64,000 nucleotides of DNA from Cupriavidus sp. AU9028 (GTDB taxonomy: Bacteria > Pseudomonadota > Gammaproteobacteria > Burkholderiales > Burkholderiaceae). The notes below the pieces were generated by a model, which ran no database searches, was not told the origin of the DNA, and saw only the letters and a list, made by a program, of their open reading frames with translations. A program made the translations under genes and the position numbers. Location of the stretch: positions 62,001 to 126,000 of the forward strand of contig NZ_JAIMCG010000015.1 in NCBI RefSeq assembly GCF_019795295.1, given 5' to 3'. Positions 33,535-43,181 of this stretch are shown here, in pieces. Numbering within the stretch: the stretch's first letter is position 1; every line of letters starts with the position of its first letter.

Positions 33535-36288
33535 TCAGCCGGCAAACACCGGTTGATCCTCCCCAACTCGGCTTGCGGCGAGCAGCGCATTGAGTTCCGG
33601 CACGCAGGAGCCACAGTTGCCGCCGGCCCTGACGCAGGCGGTGATCTGGGTGGCGCTGGTCAGCTGGTGCTTCCGGATCGCATCGCAGATGGTATTGCGA
33701 CCGACCCCGAAGCACGAGCAAACCGTCGGCCCCACGTCCGCCACCGCTTCGGCGGGCTGACCCAGCAGCAGCCCCATGCGGTCGAGATCGTCCAGGCGCT
33801 CGCGCGAGAACAGTCCGCCCAGCCACGCGCGCGCGGGCAGATCCGCCCGCGGCGAGACATGGACGCATGCCTGCACGCGCTCGTCCACCAGCCAGGCGGC
33901 ATGGTAGATGCCCGCGGCGCGGTCCTCGAATTCAAGCCAGTCCGCCTCGGGATCGCCGACGCCGAGCAGGGCGCGTGCCCATGCCGAGCGGTCGCGCACT
34001 GGTTCGCGGCCGGCGAACTCGTAGCGCTCGAACTGGCGCCCGGTGGCGCGGGTCCACCAGGTCAGGTCCTTGCAATCGAGTTCGCCGCGCGCGAGCGCAA
34101 CGCCCTGCCACGAGACCGGGAACGGATCGACCCGCACCGGCGTGTGCTTGAACTCGGGTTCGCCGGAAACCGGATCGACGACCGGGTTGACCACCGAGCC
34201 TACCCGCGCATCGGAGCTGAAGCGGCCGTTCCAGTGAATCGGCACAAAGACGCTGCCGCGCGCAATGCCGCCACCATGCCGCACGCGCACGACCACGCCG
34301 CCCCAGCGCGAGGTGACGCGGGCCAGCCGTCCTTCGCCGACGCCGCAAAGCAGGGCGTCCTGCGGATGCATGTCGACGAACGGCTCGGACAGATGCTCGG
34401 CCAGCCGCGGGGATTTGCCGGTGCGCGTCATGGTGTGCCACTGGTCGCGCACGCGGCCGGTATTGAGCACCATCGGAAAGTCGTCGTCCGTCGCGTGGAC
34501 CGGGGCGCGTGGCGCGGTGGCGACCATGCGCGCGCCGGTTGCCACGGCCAGGCGCTCGGTGCCGATGCCGGCCCGATGCACCGGCCACTGGATCGGGACC
34601 AGCGCATCCCAGGCGCGCTCGCCCAGGCCGGTCAGGCCAGCGAGATTGAACACACGCGGCACGCTGGTGTCGGCATCGTCGCCATTGCGCCAGGCCGACA
34701 GTCGCGCATGCTCGTCGAAGATCTGGTGCGGGGCGGTGTAGCCGAAGCCGTCGTAGCCCATTCGCTGCGCGACTTGCGCGAGGATCCACCAGTCCGGCCT
34801 TGCCTCTCCCGGCGCGGGCAGGAAGGCGCGCTGGCGCGAGATCCGCCGTTCGGAATTGGTGACCGTGCCATTCTTCTCGCCCCAGCCCAGCGCGGGCAGC
34901 AGGATGTGCGCGGTGTCGTTGGTGTCGCTGCGCTCGACGATGTCGGATGAAATCACCAGCTCGCACTTGCGCAGGGCGCGCTGCGCGAGGTCGGCGTCGG
35001 GCAGGCTGACCACCGGGTTGGTGGCGATCACCCAGACCGCCTTGATCCGCCCCTGATCGATGGCGTCGAACAGCTCGACGGCCTTCAGCCCCGGCCGCGC
35101 GGCAATGGCCGGCGAAGCCCAGAAGGTCTGCACCAGCTCCCGGTGGGACGGGTCGCCCAGCTCCAGATGCGCAGCCAGCATGTTGGCAAGCCCGCCGACT
35201 TCGCGTCCGCCCATCGCATTGGGCTGGCCGGTCAATGAAAAGGGGCCGGCGCCGGGGTGGCCGATGCGGCCGGTCAGCAAATGGCAATTGATGATCGCGT
35301 TGACCTTGTCGGTGCCGGCGGAGGACTGGTTCACGCCCTGCGAGAACGCCGTGACGGTTTTCGGCGTGGCGGCGAACCAGCGGTAGAAGGTCAGCACGTC
35401 TTCCAGGTTCAAGCGGCAGGCGCGCGCGACCTCGGCGGGGTCGGCCTGTCCGGCGGACGCGGCCAGCGCCTGTTCGAGCTCGTCCGCATCGAGCGCAGTG
35501 GCGGTGGAGGCGTCATCGCTGTTGCGCAGATACTGCAGCAGCCCGTTGAAGAGCCACACATCGGTGCCCGGGCGCACCGGCAGGTGCAGGTCGGCAATGT
35601 CGCAGGTGGCGGTGCGGCGCGGATCGACGACGACCAGCTTCATCTGCGGACGCGCCGCCTTGGCGGCGGCGATGCGCTGGAACAGGATTGGATGGCACCA
35701 GGCCGCATTGGAGCCGACCAGCACCACCAGGTCCGCCAGCTCGAGATCCTCGTAGCAGCCGGGCACCAGGTCCTCGCCAAAGGCGCGCTTGTGTCCCGCC
35801 ACTGCCGACGACATGCAGAGGCGGGAGTTGGTGTCGATATTGGCGGTGCCGATGTACCCCTTCATCAGCTTGTTGGCGACGTAGTAGTCCTCGGTCAGCA
35901 GCTGGCCCGACACATACAGCGCGACCGAGTCCGGGCCGTGCCGGGCGATGGTGTCGTGCAGCCCGCCGGCGACGCGGTCCAGCGCGTCGTCCCAGTCGAT
36001 GCGGGCCAGGGTGCCGTCCGGCTGGCGGAATTTGGGATACAGCAGCCTGCCCTGCAGATCGACGGTTTCGGCCAGGGCCGCGCCTTTCACGCACAGGCGG
36101 CCGGCATTGGCGGGGTGGTCGGCGTCGCCGGCCACTTCCACGCTGCCGTCGGCGCGGCGCTCGGCGCGCACGCCGCAGCCGACGCCGCAGTAGGGGCAGG
36201 TGGTGCGAACGGAGGCCACCACGGGAGATGGCGCCGCGTCAGCGGCGCTGCCGCTGGCGGCGCTCGGATCGGCGGCGGGCGCTGGCAT
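33535..36288 (-). CDS. nasA: Assimilatory nitrate reductase, molybdenum catalytic subunit with C-terminal BFD domain
   Basis: A 917-residue enzyme reducing nitrate to nitrite. An N-terminal [4Fe-4S] motif CPYCGVGCGV with the last Cys in GRLCVKG is followed by the molybdopterin oxidoreductase body (NIDTNSRLCMSSAVAGHKRAFG) and the dinucleotide-binding domain (VLNTGRVRDQWHTMTRTGKSP). A C-terminal BFD-like [2Fe-2S] domain has VCSCFGVGRNTICDAIRKHQ and CVRAGGNCGSCVPEL, the form found in NADH-linked bacterial NasA. It is last in the operon after the FAD reductase that likely feeds it. The start is uncertain: ATG 36288 is chosen, TTG 36321 or ATG 36441 are alternatives. The first 30 residues are Ala/Pro/Ser-rich. 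Confidence 0.92.
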   Translation of the reverse strand: MPAPAADPSAASGSAADAAPSPVVASVRTTCPYCGVGCGVRAERRADGSVEVAGDADHPANAGRLCVKGAALAETVDLQGRLLYPKFRQPDGTLARIDWDDALDRVAGGLHDTIARHGPDSVALYVSGQLLTEDYYVANKLMKGYIGTANIDTNSRLCMSSAVAGHKRAFGEDLVPGCYEDLELADLVVLVGSNAAWCHPILFQRIAAAKAARPQMKLVVVDPRRTATCDIADLHLPVRPGTDVWLFNGLLQYLRNSDDASTATALDADELEQALAASAGQADPAEVARACRLNLEDVLTFYRWFAATPKTVTAFSQGVNQSSAGTDKVNAIINCHLLTGRIGHPGAGPFSLTGQPNAMGGREVGGLANMLAAHLELGDPSHRELVQTFWASPAIAARPGLKAVELFDAIDQGRIKAVWVIATNPVVSLPDADLAQRALRKCELVISSDIVERSDTNDTAHILLPALGWGEKNGTVTNSERRISRQRAFLPAPGEARPDWWILAQVAQRMGYDGFGYTAPHQIFDEHARLSAWRNGDDADTSVPRVFNLAGLTGLGERAWDALVPIQWPVHRAGIGTERLAVATGARMVATAPRAPVHATDDDFPMVLNTGRVRDQWHTMTRTGKSPRLAEHLSEPFVDMHPQDALLCGVGEGRLARVTSRWGGVVVRVRHGGGIARGSVFVPIHWNGRFSSDARVGSVVNPVVDPVSGEPEFKHTPVRVDPFPVSWQGVALARGELDCKDLTWWTRATGRQFERYEFAGREPVRDRSAWARALLGVGDPEADWLEFEDRAAGIYHAAWLVDERVQACVHVSPRADLPARAWLGGLFSRERLDDLDRMGLLLGQPAEAVADVGPTVCSCFGVGRNTICDAIRKHQLTSATQITACVRAGGNCGSCVPELNALLAASRVGEDQPVFAG

Positions 36289-36378
36289 CGTGGCCGCTAC
36301 GGAAATATCGGACAGTTTCAAGGTGGTGCCTGCGGCGTGAGGTCGAGGGGCGGCTCGCGCCGCCGTGGGAGAGTCGTG

Positions 36379-36403
36379 GCATCCGGCTTGCAGAACCGGA
36401 TGC
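36379..36403. other. Hairpin between FAD reductase and nitrate reductase genes
   Basis: A perfect 8-bp inverted repeat, GCATCCGG and CCGGATGC, encloses a 9-base loop within the 131-base gap. No T-run follows on either strand. It may mark an mRNA processing point inside the operon. Confidence 0.45.
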
Positions 36404-36419
36404 GCCGTCGATACATGGG

Positions 36420-37640
36420 TCAGGCCGCAATGGCGTCGCATTGCGCTTTGCCGAACAGCAGGCGCTGACGCAGCGCGCCGACCGGGGTGCGCTGCTGGAT
36501 CAGATCGAAATACCAGGGGCCGTCCTGCACGTCGCCATACAGCACGGCGCCCACCAGCCGGTTCTGCTGCAGCACCAGCCGCTTGTAGATGCCGCGGCGG
36601 GGATCGCGCAACACCAGGTCTTCGCTGTCCTCGCCGCCGACGATGTCGCCGGCGGAGAACAGATCCACGCCGCTGACCTTGAGCCGCGTCGCGGTGGCCT
36701 GCTGCACATAGCGGCGGTGGCCGGCGCCGGCCAGATGGGCGGCGCAGACGCGCGCCTGTTCCCAGATCGGCGCGACCAGCCCGAAGGTGGCGCGGCGGTG
36801 CTGCACGCATTCGCCGACCGCGTAGATGCGCGGATCGAAGGTCTGCAGCGTGTCGTCGACGACGATGGCGCGCTCGCAGTGCAGGCCGGCCGATTGCGCC
36901 AGCGCGACATTGGGCCGCACGCCCGCCGTCATCACCACCAGGTCGGCTGCAATCGCGCTGCCGTCGGCAAAGCGCACGCCCTCGACGCGATCCTTCCCGA
37001 CGATCTCGGTGGTTGTCGCGCCCAGCAGGATGCGCAGGCCCCGGTGTTCCAGCGTGCGTTGCAGCAGCGCCGCGGCCGGCTGGTCGAGCTGACGGTCCAT
37101 CAACGTCTTGCCCAGATGGACGACGGTGACGTCCATGCCGCGGCGCAGCAGCCCGTTGGCCGCTTCCAGTCCGAGCAGGCCGCCGCCGATCACCACCGCA
37201 TGCCGATGCTGGCGCGCGGCGGCGAGCATGGTCTCGACGTCCTGCAAGTCCCGAAAGGCGATCACCCCGTCCAGGGTGTGGCCCGGCACCGGCACGATGA
37301 AGGGCTGGGAGCCGGTGGCCAGCAGCAGCCGGTCATAGCGGACCTCCCGGCCGGACTGCGCGCGCACCAGGCGGCGCGGGCGGTCGATCGCCACCACCGG
37401 CTCGCCGGCGAACAGCGTGATGCCATGCTGTTCGTACCAGGCGCGACGGTGCAGCATGATGTCGTCGACCTCCTTCTCGCCGGCGAGGACCGGCGATAGC
37501 AGGATGCGGTTGTAGTTGCCGTGCGGCTCGGCGCCGAACACCGTGATGTCGTAGAGGTCCGGCGCGAGCGCCAGCAACTCCTCCACCGTGCGCATGCCGG
37601 CCATGCCGTTGCCGACCACCACCAGGCGGGGTTTGCTCAT
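36420..37640 (-). CDS. NirB N-terminus-like FAD/NAD(P)H oxidoreductase, probable electron donor to nitrate reductase
   Basis: A 406-residue flavoprotein with the two-dinucleotide-fold layout: FAD motif VVVGNGMAGMRTVEEL at the N-terminus, NAD motif AVVIGGGLLGLEAANGLLRRG near residue 150, and the second FAD motif with TFDPRIYAVGECVQHR. It is homologous to the first 400 residues of the NirB encoded in the same operon but lacks siroheme and BFD parts. In related operons such proteins (NasB/NasC-like) carry electrons from NADH to NasA, which fits its position between nirD and nasA. Its start overlaps the nirD stop (ATGA). Confidence 0.87.
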   Translation of the reverse strand: MSKPRLVVVGNGMAGMRTVEELLALAPDLYDITVFGAEPHGNYNRILLSPVLAGEKEVDDIMLHRRAWYEQHGITLFAGEPVVAIDRPRRLVRAQSGREVRYDRLLLATGSQPFIVPVPGHTLDGVIAFRDLQDVETMLAAARQHRHAVVIGGGLLGLEAANGLLRRGMDVTVVHLGKTLMDRQLDQPAAALLQRTLEHRGLRILLGATTTEIVGKDRVEGVRFADGSAIAADLVVMTAGVRPNVALAQSAGLHCERAIVVDDTLQTFDPRIYAVGECVQHRRATFGLVAPIWEQARVCAAHLAGAGHRRYVQQATATRLKVSGVDLFSAGDIVGGEDSEDLVLRDPRRGIYKRLVLQQNRLVGAVLYGDVQDGPWYFDLIQQRTPVGALRQRLLFGKAQCDAIAA

Positions 37641-37999
37641 GCGGCCACCCATACCTTGCCGTCGGCAACGCGCGCGCGCCACGCTGGCACCGAGTGCTCC
37701 GGTGCTTCGATGCACTCGCCGGTACGCAAGTCGAAATGATGCTTGTAGATCGGCGAGGCGACCACCATCCGCTCCCCCAGGTTGCCGATCAGTCCTCGCG
37801 ACAGCACCGCGGCGCCGGCGTTGGGATCGTAGTTGGAGATGGCGTAGACCTGCTCGCTGGCGCCGACGCGAAATACCGCGATCTGCGCGATGCCGCGCTC
37901 CTGCTCGATGCGGGCGCAAACGCCGGTGTCGGGCAAGATGTCGCGCAGCGCGCAGACGGCAATCCAGGAGTCCTGGCGGGAGGTGGCGGTGTCGGTCAT
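37637..37999 (-). CDS. nirD: Nitrite reductase small subunit
   Basis: A 120-residue Rieske-fold protein. NirD-type markers are VCALRDILPDTGVCARIE, ISNYDPNAGAAVLSRGLIG and SPIYKHHFDLRTGECIE. The Cys-His pairs that bind a Rieske cluster are absent, as in other NirD proteins, so the fold is structural. It partners NirB, encoded 61 bases upstream. The start at 37999 gives the expected length (about 110-120 residues). The stop overlaps the start of the FAD reductase gene. Confidence 0.92.
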   Translation of the reverse strand: MTDTATSRQDSWIAVCALRDILPDTGVCARIEQERGIAQIAVFRVGASEQVYAISNYDPNAGAAVLSRGLIGNLGERMVVASPIYKHHFDLRTGECIEAPEHSVPAWRARVADGKVWVAA

Positions 38000-38060
38000 G
38001 ATGGCTGGCTTGCTATGAATATTGGATTCGAGTGCCCGGCTGCAGGGACGACGCGGTTCC

Positions 38061-40652
38061 TCAAACGACGGTGTCGGCTTCGGCCACGCCGGCGCGCGCT
38101 TCCGGGGCGGTCGCCGGCATGGCGTTGCCGCGCGGCGCAGCGAGGCGGCCGGTTGCCTGCCGTTCCGCGGTGGTGGCGGGGCGGATCTGGCCGCGCTCCT
38201 GCACGAACACCACATGCTCGTCGCCCTGCTCGCTGTTGACGAAATGGCGGAAGCGCTTGCGCGTCTGCGGATCGGTGACGGCCTTCTTCCATTCGCACTC
38301 GTAGGTGTCGACGACGTGCTGCATCTGCGCCTCCAGCTCGGCGGCGATGCCCAGGCTGTCGTCGATCACCACTGCCTTCAGGTAGTCCAGTCCGCCTTCG
38401 AGGTTGTCGCGCCAGACGCTGGTGCGTTGCAGGCGGTCGGCGGTGCGCACGTAGAACATCAGCACCCGGTCGATGTAGCGCACCAGCGTGTCGCGGTCCA
38501 GGTCGCTGGCCAGCAGCTCGGCATGGCGCGGCTTCATGCCGCCGTTGCCGCAGACGTACAGGTTCCAGCCATTCTCGGTGGCGATCACGCCGATATCCTT
38601 GCCCTGTGCTTCGGCGCATTCGCGCGTGCAGCCGGACACGCCGAACTTGATCTTGTGCGGGGCACGCAGGCCCTTGTAGCGATTCTCCAGCGCGATCGCC
38701 AGCCCGACGGAGTCGCCGACGCCATAGCGGCACCAGGTCGAGCCGACGCAGGACTTCACCGTGCGCAGTGCCTTGCCATAGGCATGGCCGGATTCGAAGC
38801 CGGCGGCGATCAGTTCTTCCCAGATCTGCGGCAGCTGCTCGACCCGTGCGCCGAACAGATCGACGCGCTGGCCGCCGGTGATCTTGGTGTACAGGCCGTA
38901 CTTCTTCGCGACGTGTCCGACCGCGATCAGGCCGTCGGGGGTGACCTCGCCGCCCGCCATGCGTGGCACGACCGAATAGGTGCCGTCCTTCTGGATATTG
39001 GCCAGGTAGTAGTCGTTGGAGTCCTGCAGGCTTGCATGCTCGGGCCGCAGCACGAAGTCGTTCCAGCAGGAGGCAAGGATATTGGCGACGGTAGGCTTGC
39101 AGATATCGCAGCCGTGCCCGTTGCCATGGGCGGCCAACAGCGCCTCGAATGAGCGCAGCCCGCCAACGCGGACCAGGTGATACAGCTCCTGGCGCGACCA
39201 GGCGAAGTGTTCGCACAGGTGGTTGTTGACGGCCATGCCCTGCTTCTTCATCTCGGCCTTCATCACCTGCGTGACCAGCGGCACGCAGCCGCCGCAGGCG
39301 GTGCCGGCCCTGGTGCAGGACTTGACCGCGCCGATGCTGGTGGCACCCTCGCGCACGGCGGCGCAGATGGCCGCCTTGGCGACGTTGTTGCAGGAGCAGA
39401 TCTGCGCGCTGTCGGGCAGCGCGTCCGCGCCGAGGGCGGGGCGGTCCTGCCCATCCGATGCGGGCAGGATCAGGAACTCGGGGGACGCCGGCAGCGGGAT
39501 GCGGTTCAGCATCATCTGCAGCAGCGTGCCGTACTCGCTGGCGTCGCCCACCAGCACCCCGCCGAGCAGATACTTGCCGCATGCGGAGATCACCAGCTTC
39601 TTGTAGACCTCCTTGCGCTCGTCGACGAACTGGCAGGAGCGGGCGCCGGCCGCAAGACCGTGGGGATCGCCGATGCTGGCAACGTCCACCCCCAGCAGCT
39701 TCAGCCTGGTGCTCATGTCGGCGCCGGCAAAGGCGGCGCTCTCCCCGGCCAGCTGACGTGCCACCGTGCGGGCCATGTCGTAGCCCGGGGCCACCAGGCC
39801 GAAGATCCTGCTCTGCCACAGGGCGCACTCGCCGATCGCGAAGATGTCGGGGTCGGAGGTGCGGCAATGATCGTCGATGCGGATGCCGCCGCGCTCGCCC
39901 ACTTCCAGTCCGCTGGCGCGGGCGAGGTCGTCGCGCGGGCGGATGCCGGCGGAGAAGACGATCATGTCGGCGTCCAGATGCGAGCCGTCGGCAAACCGCA
40001 TGCGGTGGCGTCCGCCGACGCCATCGACGATCTCCACGGTGTTCTTGCCGGTGTGGACGGACACGCCGAGCCCCTCGATCTTTCGCCGCAGCATCGCGCC
40101 GCCGCCTTCGTCCATCTGTACCGCCATCAGGCGCGGCGCGAATTCGACGACGTGGGTGTCCAGCGCCATGTCGCGCAGCGCCTTGGCGCACTCCAGCCCG
40201 AGCAGGCCGCCGCCGATGACCACGCCGGAGCGCGAACGGCTGCCGCATTCGCGCATCGCTTCGAGATCCTCGATGGTGCGGTAGACGAAGCAGCCGGGCC
40301 GGTCCTTGCCGGGCAGCGGCGGCACGAAGGGCGTCGAGCCGGTTGCCAGCACCAGCTTGTCGTAGGGAACGGTCTCGCCGTTGGCCAGCGCCACGGTGCG
40401 TGCCTGCCGATCGATCGCGACCGCGCGGGTGTCCAGCCGCAGTGCATAACCCTCGCGCTCGAAGAACCCGGGTTCAACCAGCGACAGCTCGTCGGCGCTC
40501 TTGCCGGCGAAGAACTCGGACAGGTGCACGCGGTCGTAGGCGGGGCGAGGTTCCTCGCCGATGACGGTAACGTCGGCCGCGGTACCGGCCTGTGCGAGGC
40601 ATTCGAGCAGCTTGTGTCCGACCATGCCGTGGCCGACGATGACGAGCTTCAT
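38061..40652 (-). CDS. nirB: NAD(P)H-dependent assimilatory nitrite reductase, large subunit
   Basis: An 863-residue enzyme reducing nitrite to ammonium. Order: FAD/NAD domain (VIVGHGMVGHKLLECL, SGVVIGGGLLGLECAKAL), BFD-like [2Fe-2S] domain (ICSCNNVAKAAICAAV, SCTRAGTACGGCVPL), ferredoxin-like half-domain, and the siroheme/[4Fe-4S] module with CVGSTWCRYGVGDS (first Cys pair) and GCTRECAEAQGKD (second pair). All ligands are present. The length is normal for NirB plus a short Ala/Pro-rich tail. It is downstream of the nitrate transporter, with a REP-like pair in the 226-base gap. Confidence 0.95.
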   Translation of the reverse strand: MKLVIVGHGMVGHKLLECLAQAGTAADVTVIGEEPRPAYDRVHLSEFFAGKSADELSLVEPGFFEREGYALRLDTRAVAIDRQARTVALANGETVPYDKLVLATGSTPFVPPLPGKDRPGCFVYRTIEDLEAMRECGSRSRSGVVIGGGLLGLECAKALRDMALDTHVVEFAPRLMAVQMDEGGGAMLRRKIEGLGVSVHTGKNTVEIVDGVGGRHRMRFADGSHLDADMIVFSAGIRPRDDLARASGLEVGERGGIRIDDHCRTSDPDIFAIGECALWQSRIFGLVAPGYDMARTVARQLAGESAAFAGADMSTRLKLLGVDVASIGDPHGLAAGARSCQFVDERKEVYKKLVISACGKYLLGGVLVGDASEYGTLLQMMLNRIPLPASPEFLILPASDGQDRPALGADALPDSAQICSCNNVAKAAICAAVREGATSIGAVKSCTRAGTACGGCVPLVTQVMKAEMKKQGMAVNNHLCEHFAWSRQELYHLVRVGGLRSFEALLAAHGNGHGCDICKPTVANILASCWNDFVLRPEHASLQDSNDYYLANIQKDGTYSVVPRMAGGEVTPDGLIAVGHVAKKYGLYTKITGGQRVDLFGARVEQLPQIWEELIAAGFESGHAYGKALRTVKSCVGSTWCRYGVGDSVGLAIALENRYKGLRAPHKIKFGVSGCTRECAEAQGKDIGVIATENGWNLYVCGNGGMKPRHAELLASDLDRDTLVRYIDRVLMFYVRTADRLQRTSVWRDNLEGGLDYLKAVVIDDSLGIAAELEAQMQHVVDTYECEWKKAVTDPQTRKRFRHFVNSEQGDEHVVFVQERGQIRPATTAERQATGRLAAPRGNAMPATAPEARAGVAEADTVV

Positions 40653-40878: not shown

Positions 40879-42285
40879 TCATGCCCGCCCCGCCAGCGCG
40901 CGCTCGATCAGGGCCTGCTCGCGGGCCTTGTGCTCGGCGGAGAAGCGCACCGCCACCGCGCACAGCGCGGACAGCGTGGCCAGCGCGCCGAGGATGAACA
41001 GCGTCTGCTGCAGGTCGCCGATGCCCTTCATCAGCAGGCCCGCCGCGACCGCGCCGACATTCCCGCCCGCGCCGATGATTCCGGACACGCCGCCCAGGGC
41101 CTGCCGGTCGATGAAGGGAACCAGCGCATAGGTGGCGCCGCAGGCCATGTGGGTGAAGAGACCGAAGGCCAGCATGGCGACCACCGCCATCGCGACGCTG
41201 CCGGCCTGCGAGAACCACAGCAGGCCCAGGCCCTCGCAGAGGATCAGCACGAACAGCACCGCCGCGCGGGCGTCCAGCCCGCGGCGCAGCGCGACCTTGT
41301 CGGAGAGCCAGCCGCCCAGCGCGCGGGCGAACAGCGCCAGCAGGCCGAAGCTCGCCGCGGCAAGTCCGGCGGTCTTCAGCGACAGGCCGAAGCGGTCGAC
41401 GTAGTACATCGCCGCGACGTTGTGGATGAAGATCTCGATGCCGAAGCAGGCGCCATAGGTGACGAACAGCAGCCAGACCCGGTAGTTCGAGCTGGCGGCG
41501 ACGAAGCTGGACCAGCCGCTGCTCTTGCCGCTCTTCGCGCCTTCGATGGGGATGCCGGCGGCACGCAGATCCGCGTAGTTGCCTTGCGGGCAGTCCTGCG
41601 TGTAGCGCCAGTACAGCACCGCCATCAGCAGCATGGCGATGCCCGGCACCACCAGCGCAACGCGCCAGCCCAGCGTCTCGCTGACGCCAAGCATCAGCAC
41701 GCCCGTCAGCATCAGCGGCATCAGCGCCTGCGCCGCGCCGCCCCCGGCATTGCCCCAGCCCGCCGCGGCGGCATTCGCGGTGCCGACCACGTTGGGGGCG
41801 AACATCACCGAGGTGTGGTACTGCGTGATGACGAAGCTGGCGCCGATCGCGCCGATCAGCAGGCGGAAGAAGAGGAAGGCTTCGTAGCTCTGCGCCATCG
41901 CTACGCCCAGTACCGGCATGGCGCCGAGCGCCAGCAGCCCCGTATAGGTCTTGCGCGGGCCGAAGCGGTCGCACAGCGGGCCGACCACCAGGCGGACCAG
42001 GATGGTGACGGCGACCGCCGCGATGTTGATGTTGGCGACCTGATCGGGCGTGAGCCCGAACTCGCCGCGCAGCATCGGCATCAGCGGCGCGCAGGCGAAC
42101 CAGCCGAAGAAGCAGACGAAGAACGCGAGCCAGGTCAGATGGAACGCGCGCATCTGCGGCGTGGCCATCGAGAACAGGTTGATGCGGGTGGCCCGCGGGG
42201 CTGCGCCCGCGGACGCCGGTGCCGATGCTGTCGTTGTTGCCGCCGTAGTTGCCGCCGTAGTTGCCGCCGAGGAGGTCGCTGCCAT
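40879..42285 (-). CDS. Nitrate/nitrite transporter, MFS NNP (NarK) family
   Basis: A 468-residue transporter with 12 predicted transmembrane segments. After an Ala/Thr-rich tail of about 35 residues (TTAATTAATTTASAPAS, encoded by 12-base tandem repeats), TM1 begins at HLTWLAFFVCFFGWFACAPLMP. The NNP nitrate signatures occur as AAAGWGNAGGGAAQALMP (TM5) and GIIGAGGNVGAVAAGLLM (TM11), and TM2/TM8 Arg residues are in VRLVVGPLCDRFGPRK and FARALGGWLSDK. It is first in the operon, with GGAG six bases before the ATG, and reached only through the leader terminator upstream. It imports nitrate for the reductases encoded downstream. Confidence 0.92.
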   Translation of the reverse strand: MAATSSAATTAATTAATTTASAPASAGAAPRATRINLFSMATPQMRAFHLTWLAFFVCFFGWFACAPLMPMLRGEFGLTPDQVANINIAAVAVTILVRLVVGPLCDRFGPRKTYTGLLALGAMPVLGVAMAQSYEAFLFFRLLIGAIGASFVITQYHTSVMFAPNVVGTANAAAAGWGNAGGGAAQALMPLMLTGVLMLGVSETLGWRVALVVPGIAMLLMAVLYWRYTQDCPQGNYADLRAAGIPIEGAKSGKSSGWSSFVAASSNYRVWLLFVTYGACFGIEIFIHNVAAMYYVDRFGLSLKTAGLAAASFGLLALFARALGGWLSDKVALRRGLDARAAVLFVLILCEGLGLLWFSQAGSVAMAVVAMLAFGLFTHMACGATYALVPFIDRQALGGVSGIIGAGGNVGAVAAGLLMKGIGDLQQTLFILGALATLSALCAVAVRFSAEHKAREQALIERALAGRA

Positions 42286-42304
42286 CGTCGCTCCAAAAGC
42301 AAAT

Positions 42305-42357
42305 GGCGTCCCGCGAACCGTCGCATCGCGCTTGCGTGCATCGGTTCAGGGGACGCC
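42305..42357 (-). terminator. Leader terminator of the nitrate operon
   Basis: On the minus strand, GGCGTCCC pairs with GGGACGCC and GAACCG with CGGTTC, giving a 14-bp interrupted stem. It is followed by ATTTGCTTTT and lies only about 20 bases before the narK ATG. Its 5' arm (42351-42357) is also the 3' side of the second hexaloop hairpin, so the two folds exclude each other. Confidence 0.7.
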
Positions 42358-42428
42358 GTTGTCCTTGCAGGCACGGTAAAGACCGTACCTGCGCTCGTTT
42401 GGGGAAGCGGACCGCCGTTGATCCGCTT
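42351..42428 (-). promoter_or_regulatory. ANTAR-type two-hexaloop antitermination leader
   Basis: Hairpin P1 (42405-42428): arms AAGCGGATC and GGTCCGCTT pair over nine positions around the hexaloop AACGGC. Hairpin P2 (42351-42364): GGAC and GTCC around the same hexaloop AACGGC. Both loops have A at position 1 and G at 4, the pattern recognised by ANTAR proteins such as NasR and NasT. An extra 10-11 bp hairpin (42367-42392) lies between them. P2 formation would open the terminator. No ANTAR gene is in the window. Confidence 0.65.
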
Positions 42429-42440
42429 GCCAGATATTTT

Positions 42441-42455
42441 GCAAGCGGTGTGCCA
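42441..42455 (-). promoter_or_regulatory. Sigma-54 promoter of the nitrate assimilation operon
   Basis: On the minus strand TGGCAC (42450-42455), five bases, then TTGC (42441-42444): a full match to TGGCAC-N5-TTGC with the GG/GC spacing intact. The expected start is about 42429, one base before hairpin P1, so the transcript would begin with that hairpin. A 15-base palindrome TTTGTGCTGCACAAA (42461-42475) sits just upstream, centred near -39. Confidence 0.85.
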
Positions 42456-42514
42456 GCGATTTTGTGCTGCACAAAGCGGGAAAACGCCCTTTTCCCCGCC
42501 AAAACGGGGCAAGG

Positions 42515-42573
42515 GCGCGGCGATGGTGCGCCGCAATGGGGCGCGTCGGGGTGCGGCGGCACGACGATGGTGC
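42515..42573. promoter_or_regulatory. Two tandem NtrC-like sites upstream of the sigma-54 promoter
   Basis: GCACGACGATGGTGC (42559-42573) and GCGCGGCGATGGTGC (42515-42529) resemble the NtrC consensus GCACC-N5-GGTGC, with one and two mismatches. Their centres fall near -137 and -93, 44 bases (about four helical turns) apart, a normal enhancer position. Both share CGATGGTGCG. Confidence 0.55.
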
Positions 42574-42629
42574 GGCGCGGTGGGCGCCGCCGATGGGGCC
42601 TGCCGGCCGAATGCCGCCAGTCGACCGGA

Positions 42630-43181
42630 CTAGCGCTTGCCCTCGCGCGGGAAGACCGGCACCACCTTCAGTTCGGCAGGCGAGACCGGCGTACCCGCTT
42701 CGTCGATCAGTGCGGCATGGACCTTCAGGCCGCTACGGGTCGAGCGCACCTCGGCAGGACCGCCGCATTCGCCGGCAAGGTGGCGGTCGCCCCATTGCAT
42801 CAGGCCGACGATCACCGGCAGCAGCTCGACCGCCGCGCGCGTGGGTCGATACGCGTCGCGCGCCCGCGCACCCGGCTCCCGATAGGTTTCCCGCCGCAGC
42901 AGGCCGGCCTCCGTCAGCGTCTTCAGGCGGGCGGAGAGCACAGCCGGGGAGCAGTGCAGCCGCGCCAGGAAGTCGTCGAAGCGGCTGACCCCCTGCAGCA
43001 CATCGCGCAGGATCAGAATCGACCACTTCTCGCCGATCAGCGCCAGGGTGGCCGCGATCGAGCAGCGCCGCAGCTGGTCCTCCAGCAGCGATGCGGCAGG
43101 ATCGGCTGCGGGCGCCGGGGCGGGAGACGAGGCCGGCGCCGGACGGGACGGGCGGGCGGTGGACGCGGCGGATCGAGTCAT
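42630..43181 (-). CDS. HxlR-family winged-helix regulator
   Basis: A 183-residue regulator. After an Ala/Pro-rich N-terminus of about 35 residues, the HxlR domain starts CSIAATLALIGEKWSILILRDVLQGVSRFDDF and continues HCSPAVLSARLKTLTEAGLL with wing AYRPTRAAVELLPVI, all typical. The conserved first Cys may be a redox or electrophile sensor. It is divergent from a GNAT acetyltransferase gene 87 bases away, its most likely target, and is separated from the nitrate operon by that operon's own promoter region. Signal unknown. Confidence 0.88.
   Translation of the reverse strand: MTRSAASTARPSRPAPASSPAPAPAADPAASLLEDQLRRCSIAATLALIGEKWSILILRDVLQGVSRFDDFLARLHCSPAVLSARLKTLTEAGLLRRETYREPGARARDAYRPTRAAVELLPVIVGLMQWGDRHLAGECGGPAEVRSTRSGLKVHAALIDEAGTPVSPAELKVVPVFPREGKR

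Follow-up and report, generated by a model that had tools for sequence, protein, structure and literature searches.

The 64-kb window (the whole stretch of DNA analysed here) carries a nitrate assimilation operon on its minus strand. The operon opens with narK (40879-42285), encoding a NarK-type MFS nitrate/nitrite transporter (MFS_1 over the cut-off; TIGR00886 at 303.5 bits, just under the cut-off of 311.7), followed by nirB for the nitrite reductase large subunit (38061-40652; TIGR02374 at 1127 bits, over the cut-off), a nirD-type Rieske subunit (37637-38215; Rieske_2, 126.9 bits), a NirB-like FAD/NAD reductase (36420-37919; Pyr_redox_2, 203.2 bits; TIGR02374 at 454.9 bits, below the cut-off of 578.35) and a nasA-type molybdopterin nitrate reductase (33535-36810). 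For the last three genes the coordinates are open reading frame limits, and the true starts are probably inside. The nasA-type reductase passes the cut-offs of Molybdopterin, Molydop_binding and Fer2_BFD, and is below those of NCBIfam equivalogs such as NasC. Between narK and an HxlR-type gene (42630-43181) is the operon's leader, also on the minus strand, and every element named there in the initial annotation was found on that strand at the position given for it. The findings support a prediction, drawn from sequence, that the DNA upstream of the operon comprises an NtrC/sigma-54 promoter plus a NasT antitermination leader. The basic type of this switch is already known; the one in the window adds a conserved extra RNA hairpin.

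The promoter core, TGGCACACCGCTTGC (42441-42455, minus strand), matches TGGCAC-N5-TTGC exactly, with the GG-N10-GC arrangement, and the exact pattern has a single occurrence in the window. With up to one mismatch there are 12 matches in the window versus 6.3 expected, and 12 was reached by 3 of 100 shuffles; since such near-matches arise by chance, the core alone is weak evidence. Its weight derives from conservation and position. Among the 73 leaders compared below, a TGG-N10-GC core was found upstream of the first hairpin (P1) in 72, and in 71 of these 72 the distance from the core to the P1 loop is 18-22 nt (the exceptions are L067, at 42 nt, and L057, which has no core by this pattern). 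Given this fixed distance, P1 would start at or adjoining the 5' end of the transcript; the transcription start itself is predicted at 42429, 12 nt past the C of the -12 element.

Farther upstream on the same strand are two NtrC-like palindromes, which were scored against the NtrC site consensus GCACC-N5-GGTGC. The first, GCACCATCGTCGTGC (42559-42573), matches 9 of 10 arm positions and is centred at about -137, and the second, GCACCATCGCCGCGC (42515-42529), matches 8 of 10 and is centred at about -93. The weaker palindrome means little alone, because shuffling the window's own 220 nt yields a site of at least 8/10 in 37% of cases. Across the leaders, 71 of 72 have a site of at least 8/10 within 220 nt upstream (L013 is without one; L074 was left out because its upstream sequence is too short), compared with an average of 18.4 leaders over 200 shuffles and never more than 31, although this enrichment overstates the evidence because related leaders are not independent. 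The genome encodes NtrC, scoring over the family cut-off, and one RpoN, so that the core, the enhancer-type sites and the genes for both proteins are all present for the predicted NtrC/sigma-54 promoter. The Klebsiella nasF promoter is Ntr-controlled (sigma-54/NtrC).

The leader RNA is predicted to fold into a series of hairpins. P1 (42405-42428), a 9-bp hairpin with hexaloop AACGGC, begins at about +2 and shows compensatory changes in relatives. P2 (42351-42364), GGAC-AACGGC-GTCC, is a 4-bp hairpin with the same hexaloop and the candidate antiterminator; its 14-mer occurs once in the window, with 0.07 occurrences expected at up to one mismatch. Between them is a middle hairpin (42367-42392) of 11 bp with loop CUUU, 2 nt before P2 (linker fold z = -5.6). 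The 3' half of P2 is overlapped by the stem of an intrinsic terminator (42305-42357), after which comes the interrupted T-rich tract ATTTGCTTTT (42295-42304). The terminator stem first described as having 14 bp resolves, in the computed fold, into 8+7 bp with a further stem inside. The folding energy computed for the 147-nt leader is -80.6 kcal/mol, compared with -53.9 for shuffled sequences (z = -6.3; none of 200 as low), and in this fold the T-rich end additionally pairs with upstream CCAAACGAGC. When the RNA was folded in growing pieces, P1, the middle hairpin and P2 formed first, with P2 preceding the 3' arm of the terminator. In the full-length RNA the terminator replaces P2, at -72.3 kcal/mol versus -61.5 with P2 enforced (a difference of about 11 kcal/mol). 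By these folds, P2 and the terminator are predicted to be mutually exclusive.

Conservation of the leader was measured among relatives, taken as the best 80, among the matches listed, of 585 confirmed stretches in a NarK scan. Of these 80 narK loci, 72 contain the P2 string GGACAA-GGCGTC(C), giving 73 leaders with the window, and eight lack it (L016, L046, L050, L053, L069, L071, L078 and L080). A covariance model run on the eight found a leader beside narK in two of them, L053 (80 bits) and weakly L071 (19 bits); the matches in L069 and L080 are elsewhere in the locus. Because possession of the P2 string is what qualified a leader for the set, and P1 was located 44-68 nt ahead of P2 through its A1/G4 hexamer, the invariance of A1, A2, G4 and the closing C-G pair of the P1 loop across the 43 aligned leaders is partly by construction. 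The four pairs of P2 are likewise invariant in the aligned leaders and thus give no covariation signal. For P1 plus the terminator, in the 43 of 73 leaders aligned, 133 cells changed on both sides versus 54.5 in shuffles, the covariation score was 0.387 versus 0.180 (slid control structures scored far lower), and 85.9% of cells were paired versus 73.5%. Counted by pair, 15 changed on both sides versus 13.6 in shuffles, a level that 110 of 500 shuffles reached. In the terminator alone, 7 of 15 pairs changed on both sides and 89.8% of cells were paired in the 43 leaders. The independent support for the leader lies in the frequency of the P2 string among relatives, the fixed core distance and the covariation. 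The expectation that hexaloops and stems are conserved in orthologous leaders is thereby borne out, by the P2 element in 72 of 80 relatives and by the covarying pairing of P1 and the terminator.

An antitermination leader of this kind calls for an ANTAR protein, and the genome, which also encodes NtrC and RpoN, has exactly one. It is a 233-aa protein (PF03861, 71.6 bits) with the REC-like plus ANTAR layout of the NasT type, in which the ANTAR domain scores 68.7 bits and Response_reg scores 24 bits, under the cut-off of 30.2. Its relatives with known structure are 6wsh (response regulator), 1s8n (putative antiterminator) and 4akk (nitrate regulatory protein). The window's leader and its genome thus share four marks of an ANTAR leader: two A1/G4 hexaloops, stems no shorter than 3 bp, a P2 that overlaps a terminator, and an ANTAR gene.

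We propose a two-lock switch, to which we assign a probability of nearly nine in ten, with NtrC and sigma-54 acting at initiation and NasT and nitrate acting through antitermination of the nitrate assimilation operon. Its computed basis is the anatomy of the leader, its conservation and covariation, the exclusive folds in silico and the presence of the genes. When nitrogen is limiting, phosphorylated NtrC sitting at about -137, and perhaps at -93 too, would open the sigma-54 promoter (the initiation lock). The transcript would then expose P1 first, next the middle hairpin and then P2. Without free NasT, the longer terminator stem would capture the 3' half of P2 and RNA polymerase would halt before narK. 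In the presence of nitrate, a nitrate-binding partner would let go of NasT, and free NasT would bind P1 and P2 at their A1/G4 hexaloops, holding P2 closed and blocking the terminator (the elongation lock). The middle hairpin would fold the extra linker out of the gap between P1 and P2. We infer the binding by NasT and the responses to nitrate and nitrogen from the NasT, NasR and EutV systems; by this analogy, nitrogen starvation would trigger and nitrate would permit expression, as the initial annotation had it.

The nasA leader of Paracoccus denitrificans is reported to have two hairpins 137 and 91 bp before nasA, and nitrate to release NasT from NasS (PMC3795266, PMC5424462). As described there, the Paracoccus NasS-NasT system resembles the window in its ANTAR protein NasT, its two-hairpin leader before nitrate assimilation genes and the involvement of NtrC, and its hairpins are far apart, as they are in the window's leader (PMC3795266, PMC5424462). 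Unlike Paracoccus, the window has a covarying third hairpin between the hexaloops before narK; and Paracoccus nasT-nasS are reported to be cotranscribed (PMC3795266, PMC5424462), whereas the neighbour of nasT in the window's genome is an NrtA-like gene behind its own leader. Klebsiella nasF, with NasR, is like the window in having nitrate-responsive ANTAR antitermination before nitrate assimilation genes (PMC3369931), but NasR senses nitrate itself via its NIT domain, whereas the NasT found here has a REC-like domain only. The EutV element of Enterococcus eut, according to published accounts, shares the two A1/G4 hexaloops and the second hairpin overlapping a terminator (PMC3369931, PMC8934654). 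The narK gene of Bradyrhizobium is preceded by predicted NasT hairpins, yet its expression is reported to be stronger without NasT (PMC6759348), so hairpins alone are no proof of positive control.

The eut element differs in the linker between the hexaloops. Natural eut linkers are reported to be 5-12 nt, with a 14-nt linker drastically lowering induction (PMC3369931) and 20 added nucleotides abolishing antitermination in vitro (PMC8934654). This range, which does not define all ANTAR leaders, contrasts with a linker of 37 nt in the window, or 11 nt once the middle hairpin is folded out; across the 73 leaders the linker measures 32-53 nt. The initial annotation was right that a third hairpin is inserted at 42367-42392, but it is not private to the window's leader, as one was drawn at the same place in 66 of 73 leaders. 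By the computed folds these drawings appear strong in the Cupriavidus type and weak, judged by z-score, in Herbaspirillum and Ralstonia. In 23 Cupriavidus-type leaders plus the window, the hairpin has 9-12 bp and variable 4-5-nt loops (CUUU, CUUC, UUUU, CCCAU, CGUA and others, without A1/G4), with linker z from -1.6 to -7.3; folding it out reduces linkers of 37-43 nt to 11-16 unpaired nt. It lies 1-3 nt from P2 in 23 of 23 leaders of this type. Among the 24 leaders, 8 of its 11 pairs show changes on both sides, and pairing is kept in 94.7% of cells. Retention of the stem while the loop varies points to selection on the structure of the middle hairpin, which, by analogy with eut, probably absorbs linker length and so keeps P1 and P2 near enough for NasT. 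Seven Ralstonia-type leaders have middle loops of 3-5 nt and z from -0.8 to -2.7.

It is rather unlikely that the middle hairpin is instead what is left of a former third ANTAR hairpin, roleless but tolerated, with NasT needing no fixed spacing. What a remnant would predict is seen in the Oxalobacteraceae, where the tip of the middle hairpin is an A1/G4 hexamer at the same position in 35 of 35 leaders. The stem there has at least four contiguous pairs in 33 of 35 (fewer in L044 and L051), the computed fold adds one A-U pair inside the hexamer in 15 of 35, and, in the 23 of these 35 leaders that were aligned, changes on both sides occur at 4 of 8 pairs, with 84.2% paired; the linker z in Herbaspirillum is only -0.2 to -2.6. 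Long linkers without a stable hairpin fit a remnant as well: all seven Paraburkholderia/Caballeronia leaders have linkers of 39-53 nt, and folding gave no stable middle hairpin in any of them (z from -1.1 to 1.4), so folding-out is not universally needed. Against a remnant stand the compensatory changes that keep the Cupriavidus-type stem and its constant closeness to P2. The shared position with the Oxalobacteraceae hexaloop could also mean that NasT, or a NasT dimer, binds the middle hairpin as an alternative, non-hexaloop recognition element; we regard this as quite improbable given that the loops are of 4-5 nt, differ from one another and have no A1/G4. The conserved third hairpin makes the ANTAR spacing rule testable through its natural variants (hexaloop, plain hairpin, none).

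The model built from 43 leaders scores the known leader at 89.5 bits in the window's genome, and it also matched a second leader (43 bits; L091:4141-4306, on contig C37 of the same genome) in the gap that separates nasT from an NrtA-type gene. This second leader has its own sigma-54 core and terminator, and three hexaloops of the A1/G4 kind. A third, weak match (C2, 27.8 bits) is flanked by genes that, by eye, resemble rplI and dnaB; it was set aside as an ordinary terminator matching by chance. A search of the genome for nasS-nasT, proposed with the initial annotation, yielded nasT; canonical NasS was not found in the genome (94.6% completeness), the sole close protein of the NasS/NrtA type being the NrtA-like one that adjoins nasT. 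That neighbour aligns to PDB 2g29 at E = 1.5e-80, which makes it NrtA-type, and the Tat-type N-termini and downstream nrtBC of its relatives likewise mark it as NrtA-type in place of the name 'nasS'. Another PF13379 protein (C33, 94.3 bits) was rejected as NasS, lying by eye beside an ABC ATPase and having a signal-peptide-like N-terminus; two further PF13379 proteins in the genome are weaker (38.8 and 30.9 bits).

To place the second leader, the best 30 of 103 matching genomes (150 scanned) were fetched with their NrtA-type protein. A model match lies just upstream of the NrtA-type gene in 26 of these 30 family loci, at E from 2.7e-11 to 0.076 (the weakest, L154, covers part of the model only), and was not found there in L138, L140, L156 and L157. 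All 26 leaders have the TGG-N10-GC core. NasT is within the fetched flank in 27 of 30 loci (not in L136, L139 and L157). In 23 of 30, nrtB and nrtC follow the NrtA-type gene and a Tat pattern (RR-x-hydrophobic, our own definition) is present; nrtBC were not found in the locus for the other seven, and four of these (the window's genome, L138, L140 and L156) are without the Tat pattern. When L128, L138, L140 and L156 were compared with L129-L137, L139 and L141-L153, the pattern was absent from 4 of 7 NrtA-type proteins without nrtBC and from 0 of 23 with them. A TIGR01183 search of the window's genome gave no match at E = 1e-30 or better (94.6% completeness). The tree of NrtA-type proteins requires at least two losses.

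The NrtA-like protein of the window's genome retains a moderately hydrophobic segment (0.82 versus 1.18-1.51 in the 23 with nrtBC), which may still direct export. In the alignment to 2g29 it keeps the W, Q, H and K motifs, which we take to be nitrate ligands. NasS is reported to differ from NrtA by the absence of a signal sequence (PMC3795266). An NrtA-like neighbour of nasT that has neither transporter partners nor a Tat motif suggests a NasS-like sensor under NasT control. A fuller account, possible but tentative, joins two changes: a third ANTAR hairpin would have been replaced by a sequence-indifferent, length-absorbing clamp that lets NasT span a linker that would block EutV, and the NrtA partner of nasT would have lost its transporter genes and export signal and become a NasS-like cytosolic sensor behind a NasT-dependent leader, so that NasT would drive its own inhibitor (negative feedback). 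The role of this protein as NasS, and hence the feedback loop, is what we infer from these features. The nrtA series offers a testable route from transport protein to regulator.

A plain attenuator or terminator free of NasT control, with a coincidental hexaloop match, is very improbable: a hairpin before T-rich DNA would by itself look identical, NasT binding to the leader is a prediction, and predicted hairpins at Bradyrhizobium narK reportedly did not mean activation by NasT (PMC6759348), but chance would hardly keep the P2 string in 72 of the best 80 narK relatives or the sigma-54 core at a fixed distance from P1, nor set a second such leader beside nasT and nrtA leaders in 26 of the best 30 family loci.

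Order-wide, 105 of 399 genomes have a leader-model match at E = 0.01 or better, a count made with stricter filters under which weak matches are lost. An automatic hairpin pattern found three A1/G4 hairpins in 17 and two in 10 of the 29 best other loci; in L114 and L121 the flanks are short and the fixed offset missed the leader. L103, L110 and L117 have a small CCC(G)-tetraloop-(C)GGG hairpin a few nucleotides before P2, and two of the loops are GNRA-like by eye.

At gathering thresholds, no Rfam leader family was found in the window or in the 12 of 80 relatives checked; a ZMP/ZTP riboswitch match over gathering was seen at L036:2382-2465. Below gathering, RF03032 (narK RNA; 30.3 bits, gathering 43.2) matches the window at 42391-42454, covering P1 and the promoter core, and RF00625 (Pseudomonas P11) matches it from the core to the terminator (22.6 bits; gathering 70). 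The RF03032 consensus includes GGCaC...UUGC, a hairpin with an AACGGC loop and ACAAAGACGU. A class-wide scan of 369 genomes with RF03032 returned 16 matches (L170-L185), spread over 15 genomes; two matches exceed gathering, both with core, P1 and P2. Fourteen of the 16 are in loci with a relative of NasT, NrtA, NarK, NirB or NasA (some at 24-35% identity). Two A1/G4 hairpins are present in 12 of 16 matches, a thirteenth (L184) resembling coding sequence, and nine begin one base inside the TGG-N10-GC core, among them the coding-like L180; L180 and L184 were set aside, as they look like chance matches in coding sequence. Judged partly by eye, RF03032 seems to be the NasT element plus untranscribed sigma-54 promoter DNA at its 5' end. 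The Rfam narK motif reportedly stems from a 2017 paper; if our reading is true, this RNA gains a function and loses its untranscribed 5' part. The titles and opening lines of abstracts of open-licence papers contained no three-hairpin ANTAR leader, no such identity for RF03032 and no leader before nasS/nrtA. In G119 and G255, some 0.2-0.3 kb separates two leader matches of opposite orientation, which suggests divergent operons under NasT control.
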